Source: Odiellus spinosus
Taxonomy: Eukaryota > Arthropoda > Arachnida > Opiliones > Phalangiidae
Reading direction: 5' to 3'
NCBI GenBank assembly: GCA_963920705.1
Contig: OY987232.1
Location: 15,377,726-15,441,725, forward strand
DNA length: 64,000 nucleotides
The position numbers and the translations under genes were made by a program. Positions 3,887 to 63,775 of this stretch are shown here, piece by piece. Every line of letters starts with the position of its first letter. The first letter of the stretch is position 1. The notes under the pieces were generated by a model. That model saw only the letters and a program-made list of their open reading frames with translations, ran no database searches and had not been told where the DNA came from.

Positions 3887-4326
3887 TTAAAGGGAGAATG
3901 CAGCCTAACATCAAATGATTTTTATCGATTCCTTATTGTTTAAATAGGCCTAATCCACTACTGAAAATATTTACAAACAAATATTAAACTAAAAATAAAT
4001 TTAATACTTACCCTGAAAATAGGCTTAGCGGGATTCATGGAGGTCCTGATTTCCTCGCGTGTAAGGTCTAGCGAACAATCGCACGCAACTGTAAGTCTCG
4101 TGGAGATCTCGTGAGAACGACGTCCCTTTGCTCATTGGTCGCTAGACCTTACACGGACGAAATTCAGGATCTCCATGAATCCCGCTAAGCCTATTTTCTG
4201 GTTAAGTTTTAAATTTATTTCTAGTTTAATATTTGTATTGTAAACTTTTTATCGGTGGATTAGGCCTATTTAAACGATAAGGACTCGATAAAAATCACTT
4301 GTTATTGGGTTGCATTCTCCCTTTAA
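3887..4326. mobile_element. Family A fold-back MITE, copy 2
   Basis: 440 bp with TTAA at 3887-3890 and 4323-4326, inverted relative to copy 1 in its central asymmetry. Fourth transposon in the predicted first intron of the 4612 gene. Confidence 0.85.
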
Positions 4327-4611: not shown

Positions 4612-6330
4612 ATGGTTGACTCCGCGTTTGTGATAAAAAAAGAGGTCGAAGACTCGACTCAAGAATATGATAATTCCCTGGTCTGTCAATGGAAAGGCGT
4701 TTGTGACGAAATTGTTACGTCAGGACCAAGTAAAGAGGTAGATTCCTCGGAAGAAGAAATTTTGCCCGATGAAAACTTGAGTTCTGCATCAATCCACGTC
4801 AAAAGCGAATATCTCAGCGATTCCGATGAAACTAATTTGGACCAGTCAGAGACGTCACAGGAACTGATACTTCACAAATGCGATCAGTGTTCTTTCGCTA
4901 CATTTTGGAAAGAGGAATTAAATTTACACGAGTTAATTCATTCGCCGGATAATCCTTTTAAATGCGACCAGTGTTCTTACACGTCTTATTTGCAAGATGA
5001 ACTTCTCAAACACAAGCTAATTCATTCGATGGTAAGACTTTTAAATACCAGTAGTTTTGCTTTCTAGTTGGAAACAGACTCTGAATAGAGTATGTGCATT
5101 AATTTTGCCCGATAAGCCCTTGAAATGTTGTCAACGTCCCTACGCTTGTAATTGGAATATCCACATGATAATTCAATCGTCTGATAAGAATATGACGGAT
5201 AATTACCCTAGGAATGCCCGTCTCTTCATAGAACCTAGTCTTAAATTAAGCAACCCATAGTTTCGAGTTCCCATCGTAGGTTTTTAAGCTACATTCCAAA
5301 TCGCTTGATTGAATTTTGAGTAAGTACTTAGCGAAATGAGTTGGGTTGCCCCCTTGACAGATTGCTTAAGTATATTCACTTGTAATTATCAAAATATCAG
5401 CAAATTGCATAAATCTGTATGTAACAATGTCCGTCGCTAACGCTTCAAAATGGCTCTACTGTTTACGCTAACGTAGTATAATGAAAAAGAAAAATTGCGC
5501 TGCTGTTAACTTTTTAAATCGTTATGAAAGTGGGAAAAAGATAAATGATAAATGAGTCATTTGTTTTTTTAAAGAATATGTATACTGGCGAAACTAAACA
5601 AGAACGCAAGTTACGATTAAGTCGTGAAAGAAAGCGAAGATGGAAAGCTCGACAGAGTCAAGAATCTTTGCAGCGTTTAGCTCAACAAAACGCGGAGGCC
5701 AAACGCCAACGACGACTAAATGAATCGCCTGAAGAAGCTCACGCTCGAAGAGCTCAAGAAGCTCAACAGAGGCAGCGATTAAGATTTAGTCAACAAGCTC
5801 GGGAAACTGATGAGGAATCGATATTACGTCAGGCGCAAGAAGCTGAACAGAGACGGCGATCAAGATTAAATCAACAAGCTCGGGAAACTGAGGAGCAAAC
5901 AATATTACGACGAGCTCAAGAAGCTGAACAGAGAAAGCTTTCTAGATTAAATCAACAAGCTCGGGAAACAGAAGAGGAATCAATATTACGTCGAGCTCAA
6001 GAAGCTGAACAGAGGAAGCTATCCAGATTAAATCAACAAATTCAGGAAACTGAGGAACAATCAATATTACGACGAGCGCAAGAAGCTCAACAAAGGCAGT
6101 TGTCAAGATTAAGTCAACAAGCTCAGGAAACTAAGGAACAATCACTATTACGTCGAGCACGAACAAATGAACAAGTTCGTCTATCAAATTCATTACGGCG
6201 TGCCAATGAAACTGAAGAACAAATTGCTATACGTCGATTTCAAGTTGCTGAAAGAGTTCGTAGATCAAGAGCAAGAAGGCGTTCGTTAATTTCAAACCAT
6301 GGCACGTTCAATGAAGATAAAGATGCTTAA
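4612..6330 (+). CDS. Two-finger C2H2 plus STPR-like repeat protein, two exons
   Basis: Model: exon 1 4612-5031, intron 5032-5574 (GTAAGA...TTTAAAG), exon 2 5575-6330; both boundaries are phase 0, giving 391 residues. Exon 1 encodes the family's acidic N-terminus (IKKEVEDS; VKSEYLSDSDE) and two C2H2 fingers (HKCDQCSFATFWKEE..., FKCDQCSYTSYLQDE...). Exon 2 encodes an Arg/Gln/Glu-rich helix region with seven 27-residue units of the form ETxEExxxxRRAQEAxxRxxS. The spacing of ET-E and RR resembles STPR domains, which bind DNA in silkworm FMBP-1; vertebrate ZNF821 joins C2H2 fingers to an STPR region. An AATAAA lies at 6345-6350, 15 bases after the stop. Alternatively exon 2 is a separate gene starting at an internal ATG (5578). 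The mirror-image copy at 12550-11306 supports the fusion. Confidence 0.62.
5033..5200 (+). pseudogene. Decayed extra zinc fingers inside the ZF-STPR intron
   Basis: Immediately after the predicted donor, the sequence still resembles a finger linker (ACTTTTAAAT...CAGT...TTGCTTCTAGTTGG, then ...CCCGATAAGCCC..., then CCCTACGCTTGTAATTGG). Small deletions break the frame and the CxxC pairs are lost (KCCQRPYACNW). This suggests the ancestral gene had more fingers and the exon now ends early at a donor that arose within the finger array. Confidence 0.6.
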
Positions 6331-6344
6331 CACAGCTGGGGACC

Positions 6345-6350
6345 AATAAA
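6345..6350 (+). terminator. Possible polyadenylation signal of the ZF-STPR gene
   Basis: AATAAA 15 bases downstream of the stop at 6330. Position is plausible but the hexamer is common in AT-rich DNA. Confidence 0.35.
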
Positions 6351-6866
6351 TTAACTGCGCTTTTTGCTATTCTCATACTTATGAAGCTATCTACATGAGC
6401 ATTGACAAAATTATTTCCATTGACTTAAATTATGAAATAGATTTCCGGATCTATATATCCTTTTATATAGTAAAAGATTAGCTTCTATATTAATTATCGT
6501 AAGAATATTTTAGAGAGGTTATCTTCAAGTACGGGACGTAGCTCAAAGTACAGGGCGAGATAAGAATTGTAGGTAAGGTAAAGACAAAATACCTAGCAAT
6601 AATCGAACCTCTTTGTAATCATATACGCAGTGAAAAAGACGGAACAAAAAGGTGATTTTAAATGAATCGAAGACTTTTTTGAAATGATTAGGGCCTATTT
6701 AAGGATGATAAATATGAACCTAACTCACGCGAGTGTTACCAATAGTATGCGCGAGTTATGATTTAAGTTAATTCACCTAATAATTATAAAATTTTGAATA
6801 TATCGACAAAGCCAAGAAGTTGAAATTGTAAGCTCGGTTTAAATAATAATGAGATAAGAAGTCATA
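6351..6866. other. Intergenic, nothing recognised
   Basis: AT-rich spacer between the ZF-STPR gene and the glycosyltransferase gene. It presumably contains the promoter of the latter, but I see no specific element. Confidence 0.4.
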
Positions 6867-8847
6867 ATGTCACTTCACCATCGTGAGCGATCTACGGTAC
6901 ATTTGAAACACGCCCATCGTTGTTTATTATACTTATCATTTTGTAGAAATCAGTGGTACAAGATTTTTCTCGGTTTGGGCGTATTTTTCGTATGTTCTCG
7001 ATACGCGATAAATATCGTGGTGAAATCATACACAAAAAATACAACAATCCCGCCTTTTTCTGAGAATCTTGACTTGGTGACGTCAAAATTAAGATTTCTT
7101 AATCAGGATTTAATTTACTTTAAAAATGAAACTCAATTCGGTAATTTTGAACAGACTAAAAGTGAAATCTTCAACGATATTAAAATAAACGAAAACACTT
7201 ATGATGTTATCGCAGCGTCGTATAATTCATCAACAACGCGAACGGAATTGAAGAAATGTCCTTTGGTTCCCCCAAATTTAGGTAATTGGTTAGCAAAACG
7301 TTTCATTTCTGTGGGAAAAAAACGATATGAGTCTGAAGGGTAATGTCTCGAAGTTTCCTTGAGATGTGTCTTAGTTTCCCAACAATATATGTGTCAATGT
7401 TGCGCGAGAGATATGTGTCGATGTTGCCCGAGAGATATGTCTCGAAGTTGCCCGAGAGCTATCTCTCGAAATTGCCCAAGAGATATGACTGCAAGTGTCC
7501 TGAAAGATATGTTATGAAGTTTCCCGATAAATACCTTTCATAAGCTACGTTCAGACTTGACACTTTGAAGCCGTTTTCAAACCGTTTCGAGTCGTCAAAT
7601 CGACTTTTTTTAGATATTAATTTGCTTTCTTGATCAAAGGTCTACACGAGTGACCCCAAAATTTTATTATTTGACCTTTCCAAAACGGTTTAAAACTGTT
7701 TCAAAGTCTGTAGTGTGAACGTAGCTTAAGTGATCCGAAAGATATGTTTTGAAGTGGCCTAAGGGATAAGCTTGGAAGTGGCTTAAGGGAGATGTTTTGA
7801 AGTGGCTAAAGGGATAAGTTTGGAAGTGGCTTAAGGGAGATGTTTTGAAGTGGCTAAAGGGATAAGTTTGGAAGTGGCTTAAGGGAGATGTTTTGAAGTG
7901 GCTTAAGGGATAAGTTTGGAAGTGGCTTAAGGGATGTTTGGAAGTGGCTTAAGGCATATGTTTTGAAGTGGCTTAAGAGATAATCCATTTTATAGTTGGG
8001 AGACTTGGAATATTATGGGACGCCCCAGAATTTGTGGATCTGGATAAAATTTACCCTAAATTAGAACTCGGGGGTCGATTTCGACCTCATAATTGCGTGG
8101 CTAAAAGCAAAGTAGCCATTATAATCCCATATCGAAACCGAGAATATCACTTGAGAATATTTCTACACAACACCCATCGAATCTTACAAAAACAACAAGT
8201 GGATTACGGAATCTACGTTATCGAAGAAGCTGGTACTGAAAAGTTTAATAGGGCTATGCTAATGAATATCGGATTCGTGGAAGCCTCCAAGGACTACGAC
8301 TACCAATGTTTCGTTTTCCACGATGTAGACTTGATACCCGAAGACGACAGAAATCTTTACACTTGTCCTCAACAACCCAGACACATGTCGGTCGCGATTG
8401 ATAAATACCATTACAGGTAATTAACTCATTATTATAATTTTTTCACAAAAACATTCAATAATTGTATATTTTCGTAGGTTACCGTACCCGACCTTATTTG
8501 GTGGGGTGAGTTCAATATCGAAGGAACACTTCGAAAAGATCAACGGTTATTCGAACGAATTTTGGGGCTGGGGTGGCGAAGACGACGACATGTCTAATCG
8601 CCTCAAGTACCACGGATTACCCGTAACACGATATCCCGCTCACATCGCTACCTATACCATGTTAACCCATAAGGAAGACGATGCCGACCCGGACAGATTG
8701 GAAAAACTGTACAATGGTGAGAAACGTTTCGCGACAGATGGACTCAACAGTCTCGTTTACGAGAGACTCGATTTTGTTCTCAAGAAAACGCATACTTGGA
8801 TACTTGCGCAAATTAAACAACCCAAAAAAACAAGACCTCCAGGTTGA
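6867..8847 (+). CDS. Beta-1,4-galactosyl/N-acetylgalactosaminyltransferase, three exons
   Basis: Model: exons 6867-7281, 7996-8416, 8478-8847; introns phase 1 and 2; 401 residues. Golgi type II membrane protein: cytoplasmic tail, one membrane segment at about 31-52, a stem with possible N-glycosylation sites, then the GT7 catalytic domain. Family marks seen: CPLVPPNL with VGRL across the first junction, FNRAMLMNIGF (about 222), metal-binding DVD at 248-250, WGWGGEDDD at 308-316, and MLTH matching the Met-x-x-His metal ligands. The residue just before FGG, bovine Tyr289, is Leu285 here (LPYPTLFGG). In this family Leu or Ile there allows UDP-GalNAc as donor, so LacdiNAc synthesis is likely. The upstream ORF stop at 7343 is only reached if the first donor is ignored. 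Confidence 0.88.
7341..7985 (+). repeat. 24-bp minisatellite split by a transposon, in glycosyltransferase intron 1
   Basis: Imperfect 24-bp units ('gcccgagagatatgtctcga' type on the left, 'gaagtggcttaagggataag' type on the right). The two halves look different but share period and 'gagatatgt/ggatatgtttt' phrases, and are separated by the family D element at 7541-7728. About 19 units in all. The period is a multiple of three, so an eight-residue repeat frame (RYVSKLPE type) appears at 7343-7543; it is not a gene. Confidence 0.75.
7541..7728. mobile_element. Family D MITE with TA ends, full-length copy
   Basis: 188 bp. Begins TAAGCTACGTTCAGACTTGA and ends with the complement ...TGTGAACGTAGCTTA, with internal inverted arms (AAACCGTTT / AAACGGTTT-like). 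TA at each end fits a Tc1/mariner-type duplication, an inference. It lies inside the 24-bp minisatellite. Confidence 0.8.
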
Positions 8848-8934
8848 CGCGCTAAGAAGGTAACTTCGAAATTAAGGCGGTAGTCAATGGGTAACTCACC
8901 AAAAAGGGTCATTTTCCGTACCAATGCTATCAGT

Positions 8935-9280
8935 TCGGGGTTTTCACTTATTTGAATTGAAATCTACTTTAGTTCGTGATGTAATTTCGATAATTATAAC
9001 ATGAGAGATTAGCGAATCTTGTTTAAAAATTACTTATCGGAATTAATCATTTCCGCACCTATTATCTCGCGTTTTAATATCGCTAGATTCTTCAACTTTA
9101 CTTCCGACGAGCCATAAAAGTCAGACGTAGTTCGTGGTATAATTTGACCATTTTATGTTTAATTTTTCTCTAGTTACGATAAGAAATGTATATTATAACG
9201 GTGTTTTACGCCACAATAGAGCCTATTATCCGAGACCAGTCACCGTCTGGCCTACAGCGTGCCCACCTGCTTCCGCGAGA
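8935..9280 (+). repeat. Dispersed repeat E, copy 1
   Basis: Related to 12655-12860 (same orientation) and to 13812-14105 (opposite orientation). Shared phrases include TACGATAAGAAATGTATATT, CCTATTATCCGAGACC and CACCGTCTGGCCTACAGC. A short piece also occurs at about 18061-18090. Ends and mechanism unknown. Confidence 0.7.
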
Positions 9281-9291
9281 GGCGGGATACA

Positions 9292-9349
9292 ACAAACAAT
9301 AAGGAATCGATAAAAAATCACTTGTTGTTAGGTTGCATTCTCCCTTTAA
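9292..9349. mobile_element. Family A end fragment
   Basis: Only the right terminus of a family A element is present (ATAAGGAATCGATAAAAAATC to the TTAA at 9346-9349). The rest is missing; a full copy lies 110 bp downstream. Confidence 0.75.
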
Positions 9350-9458
9350 GTATAATTGGTCAGCGATTCAAATTGAACTCTACGAAATCTCCAGGCATTC
9401 CTAAAAAAAAAAATAAAATATATCCCAATATAATTCGGAACTTTCTATATATTTTCAT

Positions 9459-9858
9459 TTAAAGGGAGAATGCAACCTAACAAGTGATTTTTTTTTATCG
9501 CTTCTTTATTGTTTAAGTAGGCCTAATCCACTACTGAAAAGATTTACAAACAAATATTAAACTAGAAATAAATTTAAAACTTACCCTGGAAAATAGGCTT
9601 AGCGGGATTCATGGAGGTCCTGATTTCCTCTCGTGTAAGGCTAGCGACCAATCGCACGCGACTGTAAGTCCCGTGGAGATCTCGCGTGAACGACGGGCCT
9701 TTGCTCATTGGTCGCTAAGCCTATTTTCCTGTTAAGTTTTAAATTTATTTCTAGTTTAATATTTGTATTGTAAACTTTTTATCGGTGGATTGGGCCTATT
9801 TAAATGATAAGGAATCGATAAAAAAATCACTTGTAATTAGGTTGCATTCTCCCTTTAA
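9459..9858. mobile_element. Family A fold-back MITE, copy 3
   Basis: 400 bp, TTAA at 9459-9462 and 9855-9858. One arm lacks part of the AGGTC...CATGAATCCC segment, so the hairpin is asymmetric. Confidence 0.82.
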
Positions 9859-10359
9859 GGTGGATCTCCAGTTTCCTGTGCTTATTTCCGTCCCTTTCCT
9901 CCTTGATTTTGCTCATTGACATTGTTTAGCAAATGCCACTAGTCTTCTGTCACCGTCAACGTGTGGCTGTTTTTTCTCCTTCATTAAGCTTAGACTAGTT
10001 ATTTTACGATTCAAAATTCGACAATTCTTTATTTTCTCGTGTCATCTTCATTATAATTATCAGTTTTTTTTAATGACTATAACGCGTGCAAAATTTTAAA
10101 CCCGTTTCTCGAGTTAATCTCCACCCTACCTCACCCGGAACCAAGGTAACTGAATGAGTGTGTAATATAGTCCAAACATAAAGTTCATTCGAAATTAAAT
10201 TAGAACTAAATTTTTAAATAAGTCGAGTTGTGTGTGTATCGAAAAGAGGAATTGGTATAGGCTAAAATCAACCTGTGTGTGAAAATTATTACGCGAATGT
10301 GAAACATTAATCAATCACGCTGGATATAATTCTCGCTAAGCCTCGGCCGTAGAGCTTCG

Positions 10360-10544
10360 ATGATACTTCTTTTGTTTTTGGGATCAGCCTTTCATCATCC
10401 CCACTCTGATGTGACGTAAGTGAAATTTAAATTTCTACTTTATTTTGTATTTTGAGGGTTATTGTATCAATTAACTCGTTGCTTGATGACAGGAGTAACT
10501 TAATCAACCTTCTTTCGGGACGCAAGAAGAAATGTAAGATGTAG
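10360..10544 (+). CDS. Candidate small secreted-peptide gene, two exons
   Basis: Tentative. ATG at 10360 opens a signal-peptide-like start (MILLLFLGSA), with a donor after 10415 (GAC|GTAAGTG, phase 2). An acceptor TTGATGACAG ends at 10492; the joined frame reads ...TSNLINLLSGRKKKCKM then TAG at 10542-10544, 35 residues in all. G-R-K-K-K resembles an amidation plus basic cleavage site of peptide precursors. A second donor-like AAAT|GTAAGA at 10534 means the frame could instead continue into another exon. No homologue recognised; it may be fortuitous. Confidence 0.25.
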
Positions 10545-10725
10545 TAATTAACTAAACTAAAAAATGTTACTCGAGGTTTCAACATCTGAAATTGAGTCTT
10601 TTAATAGGCAAAAGATAGTGTAAGATTGAATTTACAAGTTCTTAGAAGCTATAAATTACTAAATTGTCATTTGCATATCTAGAAATTTTAAGTTTCCTTT
10701 GATATATTCTGAAAAAATAGTGTTA

Positions 10726-10830
10726 AATTAGGCATGCCACCTGACTCAATTCAAGCCTTGTCAAATTGATCTCGCGCCAAGCAGACGAATTTAAATCTTT
10801 AGAAACATTCTTTCATTTTTTGGATTAATG
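10726..10830. repeat. Dispersed repeat F, copy 1
   Basis: 'caaattgatctcgcgccaag' and flanking words recur in diverged form at about 54380-54460 and 58990-59070. A short interspersed repeat of unknown type. Confidence 0.5.
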
Positions 10831-10834
10831 ATCT

Positions 10835-10905
10835 TTACAGTTGACCCCTAAATTTTTCTATTTGACCTCTACAAAATGGTTAAAAACAGGCCTGAAATCA
10901 CTGGC
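10835..10905. mobile_element. Family D fragment
   Basis: The interior of family D (TTGACCCCTAAATTTT..., TATTTGACCTCTACAAAATGG) is recognisable by comparison with 7640-7710, but both termini are missing. Confidence 0.5.
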
Positions 10906-11099
10906 TTCGTTGTATTTTGATTCCATGACTTATCTGAACCCCTCTCACTTAAAATAGCTTTTTTCTGCATGTTTTAATTTCATCTTTACATTAATTAGTT
11001 CTTTCGTATGGCGTAAATAGTGCTATGCAAATCAATACACAATTCTATTTTTATATTCAATTAAAATAGTTTAGGAAACTTTACTTTTATAACACAAAA

Positions 11100-11270
11100 G
11101 TGTTAATGTAATAGAAATTATCTCAATTTCATTGGCTTGTCATAAGGAATTTGAAGTACCAACTCTTTCATTTGTTTGTAATCGAAGCAATAGTGATTTT
11201 GCTCTTCTTTTACCTTAGCTTTTTTCCTTAATATTATCTATGAATTTATTCACACACTTGCAATCTAAAT
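11100..11270 (-). pseudogene. Decayed STPR-like repeats downstream of the minus-strand gene
   Basis: On the minus strand the sequence still resembles the 11281-11360 repeat unit (CCAATGAAACTGAAGAA-like and AATCACTATT-like phrases) but is interrupted by stops and shifts. It is probably the former C-terminal end of the gene, cut off by the stop at 11306. Confidence 0.5.
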
Positions 11271-11305
11271 ATAACGGTTAGTTCTTCAGTTTCATTGGCT
11301 TGTCG

Positions 11306-12550
11306 TCAAGAATTTGATAGACATTTGCTTGTTTGTGCTCGACGTAATAGTGATTGCTCGTCAGTTTCCTGAACTTGATTTAATCTTGATAGCTTCACCC
11401 GTTTACTTTCTTTGGCTCGACTTAATAACGATTGGCCGTCTGTTTCCCTAGTTTTTTGACTTAATCTTGATAATTGCTTCCGTTTAGCTTCTCGCGCTCG
11501 ACGTAATAGTGATTGTTCCTCAGTTTCCTGAACTTGTTGATTTAATCTTGTTAGCCTAATCCGTTGAGCTTCTTGTGCTCGACGTAATAACGTTTGCTCC
11601 TCAGTTTCCAGAGTTTTTTGACTTAATCTTGATAATTTCATCCGTTGAGCTTCTTGCGCTCGACGTAACAAAGTTTGCTCCTCAGTTTCCTGAGCTTGTT
11701 GAGTTAATCTTGATCTTTGCATCCGTTTAGCTTCTCGCGCTCGTCGAATCTGAGCTTCTTCGGGTGTTTCATTTTGTCGTCGTTGGCGTTTGGCCTTCGC
11801 ATTTTGTTGACATATTCGCTGCAAAGTTTCTTGGCTCTGTTTAGCTCTCCATCTTTGCACTTTTTGACGATTCAATCGTAACTTGCGTTCTTCTGGAGTT
11901 TCATTAGCATGCGTATTCTATAAAAAAACAAATTGGACTAATTTAGGTTAGGGAATGAATATTATTGCGCTACTTAAGACAAATGGTCGCTTATTTATTT
12001 AAAGGGCTTATCAGGCTAACGAATTAATTACCTTATGGTTTATGAGATTAACTTGCCAACGAGAAGAAAAGCAACACTGATCGCATTGAAATGTTGCATC
12101 GGTCGAATGAATTAACTTATGATCAGTTAATTTTTCTTTCCAAAAAGTTGCGAAAGAATTGCATTTGTGAACTATCAATTGTGGGTCCTGTTCCGTTGCT
12201 TCTTTAGTCTGAAGTGTTTCCTGACCTAATTCAGTTAGAGGCACGTTGTAATCACTGGGACATTCGCTCTTGACGTGACCTTCCCACGAACACTCGTTTT
12301 CATTGGTCAGTAATTGTTCTTCTAACAAGTTGTCTTCTTTAATTGAACCTGACGGAGCAATTTGGTCACAAACGCCATGACATTGAGAGTCGAGATGATT
12401 ATGACTGTGTTCATCATATTCTCGTGAGTCGGGTAGAATAAATTCAAGCTCATTAGATTCTAGAGTGTCAGGTAGAATAGAACCAAGCCCATCAGATTCT
12501 CCGGGAGAGTCTTCAATTTCATTTTTTATCGCAAACTCGGGATCAAACAT
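11306..12550 (-). CDS. Two-finger C2H2 plus STPR-like repeat protein, inverted copy, probably decaying
   Basis: Model on the minus strand: exon 1 12550-12032, intron 12031-11918 (GTAATT...TTTATAG), exon 2 11917-11306; both boundaries phase 0; 376 residues. The ATG at 12550 gives MFDPEFAIKNE, matching the family; an upstream in-frame TTG is not used. N-terminus has IKNE and VKSE motifs. Finger 1 has lost residues around its second Cys (HKCNSFATF), so it cannot be a normal C2H2 finger. Finger 2 is FQCDQCCFSSRWQ...; its last His is supplied across the splice (HK joined to NTH). Exon 2 starts NTHANETPEERKLRL and has six 27-residue units, then stops at TGA where the plus copy has TTA. Paired with 4612-6330 as an inverted duplication flanking the glycosyltransferase. 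Function may be impaired. Confidence 0.55.
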
Positions 12551-22683: not shown

Positions 22684-23095
22684 AAGCTACGTTCACACTA
22701 GACACTTAAGCTACGTTCACACTAGAAACTTAAGCTACGTTCACACTAGACACTTAAGCTACGTTCACACTAGACACTTAAGCTACGTTCACACTAGACA
22801 CTTAAGCTACGTTCACACTAGACACTTAAGCTACGTTCACACTAGACACTTAAGCTACGTTCACACTAGACACTTAAGCTACGTTCACACTAGACACTTA
22901 AGCTACGTTCACACTAGACACTTAAGCTACGTTCACACTAGACACTTAAGCTACGTTCACACTAGACACTTAAGCTACGTTCACACTAGACACTTAAGCT
23001 ACGTTCACACTAGACACTTTGCAACGATTTTCAAACCGATTCTTATGTTCAAATCGATTTTTAAAAAATTTTAATTTTTTTTGTTCATGCAAAAA
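22684..23095 (+). repeat. Fourteen exact-length copies of the family D terminal 24 bp, followed by D interior
   Basis: 336 bp = 14 x 24 at 22684-23019, unit AAGCTACGTTCACACTAGAC plus ACTT, nearly identical in all copies. Immediately after, GCAACGATTTTCAAACCG and GTTCAAATCGATTTTT continue as in family D. So the array is the terminal repeat of one D element amplified in place. It lies in the predicted first intron of the 23378 gene. There are no spacers, so it is not CRISPR-like. Confidence 0.9.
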
Positions 23096-23377
23096 AGTAC
23101 TTTACTTACGAGTAATTAACTTTTAATTGAAAATTTATCCTACACTACACCAATCGACGATGATGGATCATATTTATGGTTGTTAAACATATTAATCACA
23201 GTGTATTTCTAGAATATTTTAAAACTTCGGGAACCTCGCGTCCATGCCCCTAGCACCAACTCAGCTATTAACTATTTTAACAATAGTTCCTACCTTACCT
23301 TAATCCAAACCTCTAGGGTGTTTTTATTGGTTCGTGGATTGTCTCTTTTCTGTAGCGTTAAAATTCCAAGAACAATT

Positions 23378-24331
23378 ATGGAAACAGAAGTTTCAGAAGA
23401 CAATCATCAAGTAAAAGATGAGAACAGTTATATTCTCCCTGATTACCCATCAGATGAAGATGAAAACACCTCAGAAACACATGGTTTTCAGAATGAAAAC
23501 GTCAGTTCTTTGGTATCTCAAATCAAGACGGAATGTCCCAGTGATTCTAGTCAGTCATTCACTGATTTCGACCAGGATGCAATGCAAATTAAAAAGGAGT
23601 CACAGATTCAGAAGGCAGAAACAGCGCGAGAGTTATTTCATTCGGCCGAAAAGTCCTTTAAATGCGATGAGTGTGAATACGCCTCTCGTAAGAAATCGGG
23701 TCTTAAAACTCACAAGTTAATACATTCGTCTGATAAGGCCTTTAAGTGCGATCAGTGTGATTACGCTTCCAGTTCTAAAGGCAATTTTCATAAACACAAA
23801 AGAATTCATGTGGCCGATAAGCCCTTTAAATGCGATCAGTGTGAAATCGCATATTACCAGAAAGCGAGTCTTAAAACGCACAAGTTAACACATTTGTCTG
23901 ATAAGCCCTTTAAATGCGATCAGTGTGACTACGCTTCTTATCGAAAAATCAGTAAAAGTCACATGTTTATTCACTCTGGCGATAAGCCTTTTAAATGCGA
24001 TCAGTGTGACTACGCTTGTAACCAGAAGGCTAGTCTTAAAAACCACAAGTTAATACATTCGTCTGATAAACCCTTTAAATGCGATCAGTGTGACTATGCT
24101 TATTTCCAGAAATCTAGTCTTAAGGATCACAAGTTGACACATTCGTCTGATAAACCTTTTAAATGCGATCAGTGTGACTACGCTTCTTATCGAAAAAGCC
24201 ATCTAAAAAGCCACGTATTAACTCATTCTTCCGATAAGCCCTTTAAATGCGATCAGTGTTCCTACGCGTCTACTTCGAAAGTGCGACTAAATACCCATTA
24301 TTTAATTCATTCGAGTACCAATAAGAGGTAA
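23378..24331 (+). CDS. C2H2 zinc-finger protein, eight fingers (cluster member)
   Basis: Single-exon CDS of 317 residues from ATG 23378 (METEVSEDNHQ); the open frame runs further upstream but crosses the acceptor TTTTCTGTAG ending at 23355. The first SUMO-type motif is lost (METE instead of IKKE) and the second, IKTECPSDSS, is kept. Eight fingers of a CDQCDYAS subtype with SSDKPFKCDQ linkers are very alike, suggesting recent internal duplication. Finger 4 (DYASYRKISKSH) is one residue short between Cys and His. Ends HSSTNKR without the YSRKK tail; AAGAG|GTAATT at the end could be a donor to a tail exon. Confidence 0.88.
   Translation: METEVSEDNHQVKDENSYILPDYPSDEDENTSETHGFQNENVSSLVSQIKTECPSDSSQSFTDFDQDAMQIKKESQIQKAETARELFHSAEKSFKCDECEYASRKKSGLKTHKLIHSSDKAFKCDQCDYASSSKGNFHKHKRIHVADKPFKCDQCEIAYYQKASLKTHKLTHLSDKPFKCDQCDYASYRKISKSHMFIHSGDKPFKCDQCDYACNQKASLKNHKLIHSSDKPFKCDQCDYAYFQKSSLKDHKLTHSSDKPFKCDQCDYASYRKSHLKSHVLTHSSDKPFKCDQCSYASTSKVRLNTHYLIHSSTNKR

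Positions 24332-42659
<18,328 letters not shown>

Positions 42660-51300: not shown

Positions 51301-63775
<12,475 letters not shown>

Follow-up and report, generated by a model that had tools for sequence, protein, structure and literature searches.

In the 64 kb stretch of contig C8 of Odiellus spinosus analysed here (the window), two inverted copies with about 5 kb between them each place an open reading frame (ORF) for C2H2 zinc fingers upstream of a frame of tandem repeats resembling the STPR domain. Do the two frames encode one spliced protein, and how were they brought together? An earlier note on this DNA had proposed a single spliced protein, and the copies, coordinates, phase-0 junctions, homologous acceptors and 81-bp repeat that it described were all borne out. 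From the sequence, we consider it likely that both loci are two-exon genes, in which capture of a terminal exon joined an acidic N-terminus and its finger or fingers to an STPR-like repeat. The union of zinc fingers and repeat in one spliced protein appears well supported by top-ranked in-phase donors, by a finger completed across the splice in copy 2, and by the phase agreement at a third copy on contig C17. The features of copies 1 and 2 are listed below, with a slash marking the exon boundary.

4612..5031, forward strand: copy 1 exon 1, with ATG at 4612, acidic N-terminus, IKKE/VKSE motifs and two complete C2H2 fingers
5032..5574, forward strand: copy 1 proposed intron, donor ATG/GTAAGA, phase 0, best of 57 GTs
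5111..5188, forward strand: decayed C2H2 finger in the copy 1 intron, from comparison with family fingers
5427..5472, forward strand: 46-bp block with 80% identity to one that precedes the C17 repeat exon; possible regulatory element or promoter
5575..6330, forward strand: copy 1 exon 2, acceptor TTTGTTTTTTTAAAG/AAT, 251-residue basic repeat and stop
6345..6350, forward strand: AATAAA, 14 nt past the copy 1 stop, as for a terminal exon
12032..12550, reverse strand: copy 2 exon 1, with N-terminus, broken finger 1, and finger 2 without its last His
11918..12031, reverse strand: copy 2 proposed intron, donor AAG/GTAATT, phase 0, best of 30 GTs
11997..12014, reverse strand: inter-finger linker remnant of 18 nt, Asp-Lys-Pro-Phe-Lys codons in the copy 2 intron
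11994..11999, reverse strand: AATAAA within the copy 2 intron, which might serve as an early, alternative poly(A) site
11306..11917, reverse strand: copy 2 exon 2, acceptor TTTGTTTTTTTATAG/AAT, 203-residue repeat starting Asn-Thr-His, which completes finger 2
11236..11305, reverse strand: sequence past the copy 2 stop in which homology to exon 2 of copy 1 continues, marking copy 2 as truncated

The strongest single observation for a spliced protein is the finger that splicing would complete in copy 2. The second Cys of finger 1 is gone through a 6-nt in-frame deletion, and finger 2 carries Asn in place of its last His. Searched with the pattern C-x2-C-x12-H-x3-5-H, copy 1 gives two motifs, while copy 2 exon 1 gives none, whether taken by itself or extended to its stop, and copy 2 read across the splice gives exactly one. 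The two fingers that the earlier note had assigned to each copy are therefore present and complete in copy 1, whereas copy 2 exon 1 holds no complete finger. The joined finger of copy 2 is CDQCCFSSRWQVNLINHK/NTH, with H-x3-H spacing and its last His contributed by exon 2. His makes up only 3 of the 454 residues of the two exon-2 proteins, and simple arithmetic from this content gives a probability of about 2% that a His falls by chance on any of the three spacings permitted. The position of the completing His is occupied by Tyr in copy 1 and by Asn in the C17 copy.

The donors point the same way. All GT sites were scored by an ad hoc donor weight matrix; the copy 1 donor scores 8.82 bits and ranks first of 57 (next 5.33), and the copy 2 donor scores 7.73 bits and ranks first of 30 (next 5.66), both in phase 0 and within an open frame. 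Among the coding regions of 35 relatives, described below, a site as strong as the copy 1 donor occurs in 2 and one as strong as the copy 2 donor in 14. AAG/GTAATT, found where a finger encodes His-Lys-Val-Ile, accounts for 11 of the 17 strong sites listed (drawn from 12 of these 14 members). On its own, the copy 2 donor is thus weaker evidence than its rank suggests, because sites of AAG/GTAATT strength recur in finger-only relatives. The same frequency suggests that arrays of fingers may be predisposed to splice into new exons. AAG/GTAATT lies in phase 0 at 10 of the 11 sites (L028, L036, L040, L043, L047, L051, L056, L058, L060) and in phase 1 in L063. Also in favour of a terminal exon 2, an AATAAA follows the stop at 14 nt in copy 1 and at 55 nt in copy 2.

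A third copy of the repeat exon, absent from the earlier note, was found on contig C17 (L018:4309-4535) as a 74-codon relative with 67% identity. Its acceptor is in phase 1; an exon-like ORF upstream ends in the donor AATG/GTAAGT, also in phase 1 (10.15 bits), and a finger exon downstream has a phase-1 acceptor too. On our own gene model, the C17 repeat exon would be an alternative terminal exon of a zinc-finger gene, like the alternative terminal exons of other multi-exon C2H2 genes in that the repeat and finger exons fit the same phase-1 donor. The C17 host differs from the window genes in its N-terminal exon, for which no homology to the window family was detected (E 0.09). A search of the genome (443 Mb, 286 contigs) with the C17 protein at E up to 10 returned three loci and no fourth repeat copy, and other searches agree, although weak matches can escape them. 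A pogo-like transposase ORF of 442 codons (L018:1888-3213; DDE_1, with HTH_psq just under the cut-off) sits between exons of the C17 zinc-finger gene, in the same intron and upstream of the repeat exon.

The repeat ORF might instead be a separate gene, or an isoform from an alternative promoter, with its own start; the upstream finger ORFs would then be truncated neighbours and the AG before AAT an ordinary 5'-leader acceptor or a chance occurrence. Copies 1 and C17 do carry an in-frame ATG at or near the start of the exon, and they have in common the 46-bp upstream block (80% identity; 43.7 bits against 30.1 for the best of 40 shuffles), which could be a private promoter. A 30-nt pattern of this block occurs in the genome at copy 1 and C17 with 0 mismatches and at one other site with 3. 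Copy 2, however, lacks the block and has ACG in place of the ATG, so that its first in-frame Met comes only in the third unit, and yet 203 codons stay open. Together with the best-ranked in-phase donors of both copies and the copy 2 finger completed across the splice, this makes a separate gene or isoform improbable.

How the two exons met is suggested by what the introns contain. The decayed finger in the copy 1 intron scores 32.7 bits against family fingers, compared with 22.3 for the best of 15 shuffles, and the same intron holds a 19-nt exact family match, where 50 shuffles reach at most 17. The copy 2 intron holds an 18-nt exact family match to linker codons, where 50 shuffles reach at most 14. 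The earlier note had left open whether one form gained or the other lost the repeat exon; since both introns hold remnants of finger sequence, the finger-only form most likely came first and then gained the repeat exon. The ancestor would have been a one-exon gene with multiple fingers, downstream of which a repeat exon arrived with its own acceptor; a donor would have arisen in finger or linker codons, and the distal fingers, now part of an intron, would have decayed. The resulting exon 1, with the acidic N-terminus of the family and one or two C2H2 fingers, would be joined in phase 0 to a basic, near-wholly helical STPR-like exon. Its product would act in the nucleus as a DNA-binding factor, with a long STPR-like helix in place of most of the finger array and the acidic N-terminus as a regulatory domain.

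The surrounding family is consistent with this ancestry. The window contains a run of C2H2 genes with a common N-terminus of the type MIDPEYIIKKEVE...ILPD...VKxECLSDS, and sequence comparison bore out the claim that the finger-only neighbours share this N-terminus with copies 1 and 2. Against the whole genome, copy 1 exon 1 gives at least 253 matches, in which the same genes are recounted through other fingers. From 32 family stretches that were fetched, a start-motif filter left L033 and L061 without a member and also dropped the window gene 23213-24331 and one match inside L028; the 35 relatives comprise the remaining fetched stretches, one gene in L028 and four in the window. All 35 are finger-only, with 4 to 24 finger motifs per gene. 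A tree of 37 family genes pairs copies 1 and 2 as sisters, on support that is mixed (96 by bootstrap, 43 by the Shimodaira-Hasegawa-like approximate likelihood ratio test, SH-aLRT); L039 joins next (98/90), followed by the window gene 15810-15004 (95/89). Genome searches found no repeat exon beside either of these two.

Synonymous divergence bears on whether the exon was captured once or repeatedly. The proportion of synonymous differences (pS) between copies 1 and 2 is 0.29 in exon 2 and 0.52 in exon 1 (Fisher p 0.0013 on rounded counts), and the synonymous distance (dS) of the C17 exon is 0.35 to copy 1 and 0.44 to copy 2. The low divergence of exon 2 and the block common to copy 1 and C17 fit an exon that spread once the finger genes had already diverged; slower synonymous change in the repeat, or conversion, could also explain the low divergence. 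An explanation by conversion alone, between copies 1 and 2, is not favoured, the C17 copy being about as close from another contig. A bolder reading, which we hold only as a tentative possibility, is that three zinc-finger genes from two unrelated families acquired one and the same STPR-like terminal exon in separate captures, so that the ZNF821 architecture arose anew and independently. It draws on the different places of the copy 1 and copy 2 donors in the finger sequence, on introns that share little beyond a finger-linker piece and the last bases before the acceptor, on upstream sequence that copy 1 shares with C17 and not with copy 2, and on the lower synonymous divergence of exon 2 than of exon 1. 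Should it hold, which we regard as doubtful, each capture would have used an in-phase donor of its host, with a zinc ligand of copy 2 lying beyond the intron.

Several observations weigh against a working two-exon gene at both loci, as does the ad hoc nature of the donor matrix. Over the 203 codons of exon 2 compared between copies 1 and 2, the ratio of nonsynonymous to synonymous substitution rates (dN/dS) is 0.62, and the 95% interval of the corresponding ratio of proportions (pN/pS) is 0.51-0.97; the differences by codon position are 46/45/42. The first 76 codons of exon 2 show almost no constraint (pN 0.196, pS 0.222), and the pN/pS intervals of copy 1/C17 and copy 2/C17 include 1. Copy 2 is damaged by the lost Cys, an early stop and a codon deletion, in one of its units Gly and Ser occupy the two key positions, and an AATAAA lies inside its intron. 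A tblastn search for a finger remnant in the copy 2 intron gave 18.1 bits, against 18.9 for shuffles. On the other side, exon 1 has a copy 1/copy 2 dN/dS of 0.335, and when all changes were placed on one branch in neutral simulations, 1 run of 5000 kept the frame open over 203 codons despite 133 differences. We read exon 2 as coding, with a relaxed or changing demand on its amino acids, combined with decay of copy 2; on this evidence copy 1 is probably functional and copy 2 may be decaying. That both loci are decaying remains of finger genes, disrupted when a repeat exon inserted and without a working chimeric protein, accords with the damage to copy 2 and an exon 2 ratio weakly below neutral, but it is improbable given an intact copy 1 in both exons with AATAAA 14 nt past its stop, the constraint on exon 1 and the frames kept open.

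What, then, is the repeat that the spliced protein would carry? Tandem Repeats Finder reports a period of 81 in both copies (5750-6158, 5.0 copies, in copy 1; 11333-11743, 5.1 copies, in copy 2). In both, the units are of 24, 20 and then 27 residues, with a tail in copy 1 and one unit of 26 in copy 2, so that the 27-residue unit of the earlier note applies to the later units and not to units 1 and 2. The tandem 23-residue unit of STPR is found in neither copy. Glu4 and Arg9 occur together in 14 of the 20 unit rows of the three copies. The pair is incomplete in six rows, namely in five of the six short units (units 1 and 2 of each copy) and in the 26-residue unit of copy 2. All 10 of the 27-residue units tabulated have the pair, in a table that left out the terminal unit of copy 1, the 26-residue and truncated units of copy 2 and all C17 units. 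A simple STPR is disfavoured, because the misses fall mostly in the short units nearest to STPR length.

Comparison with the Pfam profile PF21107 (STPRs) matched residues 3-58 of copy 2 exon 2 to profile positions 17-74 (19.5 bits, E 0.0014), in the short-unit part and below the curated cut-off of 27 bits; with the first 76 residues alone E falls to 0.00013. Copy 1 and the C17 copy were unmatched by the profile. The STPR resemblance put forward earlier is thus visible to the profile in one copy of three, and the kinship appears weak but above chance for copy 2. A genome search with PF21107 revealed no canonical STPR gene elsewhere and also missed copy 2, which hmmscan matches; a match on contig C15, flagged over the cut-off, was rejected as low-complexity tandem repeat DNA. 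An STPR consensus found no match in the genome at E 0.1 and so failed to recover even the three copies already known. No relative of the repeat was confirmed in the IMG/VR and GTDB scans, and the Protein Data Bank gave no meaningful match by sequence (best E 0.15) and 0 matches by fold.

AlphaFold2, run on a two-sequence alignment, predicted helices at residues 8-49 and 52-242 of the repeat exon protein (mean predicted local distance difference test score 88.7, predicted template modelling score 0.31). The isoelectric point (pI) is 4.3 and 4.4 for exon 1 and 11.4 and 11.4 for exon 2 of copies 1 and 2, respectively. For the sequence-specific or AT-rich DNA binding that marks STPR domains, the repeat offers its basicity and its predicted helix. 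A coiled coil was rejected: hydrophobic power is 0.04 at period 3.5, and the best peak, at 3.86 (power 3.52), stays below the shuffled-unit 95% bound of 4.28. As plain arithmetic, a helix of 23 residues is about 34 Angstrom long, or one turn of B-DNA, and one of 27 residues about 40 Angstrom. Units of 27 residues may have another way of reading DNA, or none.

Among known systems, human ZNF821 is described as having two C2H2 fingers and an STPR domain (PMC13362889). Copy 1, if spliced, would likewise have exactly two complete fingers and an STPR-like repeat, with weak STPR membership. In contrast to ZNF821, the window N-terminus and fingers come from a large local family whose 35 other sampled members are finger-only, and the repeat would arrive as a spliced terminal exon extended by 27-residue units; the likeness drawn here is one of architecture. 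In FMBP-1 of Bombyx mori, the STPR has four 23-residue units with Glu4 and Arg9 and is helix-rich on DNA, and a Glu4/Arg9 salt bridge is important for the DNA-bound form (PMC4821344). The 27-residue units here resemble it in being basic, predicted helical and furnished with Glu4 and Arg9, and depart from it in the 24, 20, then 27 spacing and in short units mostly without the pair. The regions of FMBP-1 given in that source are acidic, hyper-basic and STPR, and its main text uses the term "zinc finger" 0 times (PMC4821344). Of the two precedents cited earlier for a C2H2 and STPR pairing, ZNF821 (PMC13362889) therefore stands and FMBP-1, as presented in that main text, does not. The pairing itself is already known from ZNF821; the capture route and the 27-residue extension differ. 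No such exon capture is described in the literature searched on STPR, ZNF821, FMBP-1 and zinc-finger intronization or exonization, judged by titles and the beginnings of abstracts with few subscription papers.

If the capture is real, a transcription factor has changed its DNA-reading part with the intermediates still readable: a finger-only gene and a repeat exon, finger codons turned into splice donors, and lost fingers fossilised in an intron. Such loci would also amount to a natural experiment on whether DNA is still bound by an STPR-like helix whose units have 27 rather than 23 residues.

The remaining observations concern the neighbourhood. Between copies 1 and 2 lies a beta-1,4-galactosyltransferase-type gene (Pfam Glyco_transf_7N and 7C), with a 24/48-bp minisatellite at 7741-7982 directly 5' of its open frame. 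A very recent array of a 24-bp unit (x14, 99% matches) occupies 22684-23019. Tandem arrays of a AGTCTTAAGAGGTCTTGGGGAAGTCTT-like unit stand at 32358-32765 and 53868-54193, and similar text on contig C17 (L018:1-60 and 1261-1430) marks it as a dispersed tandem repeat family. Related stretches starting with AATAGGCTTAGCGGGATTCATGGAGGTCCTGATTTCCTC occur at about 4020-4200, upstream of copy 1, and at 9580-9740, between the copies, and have the appearance of a dispersed element.

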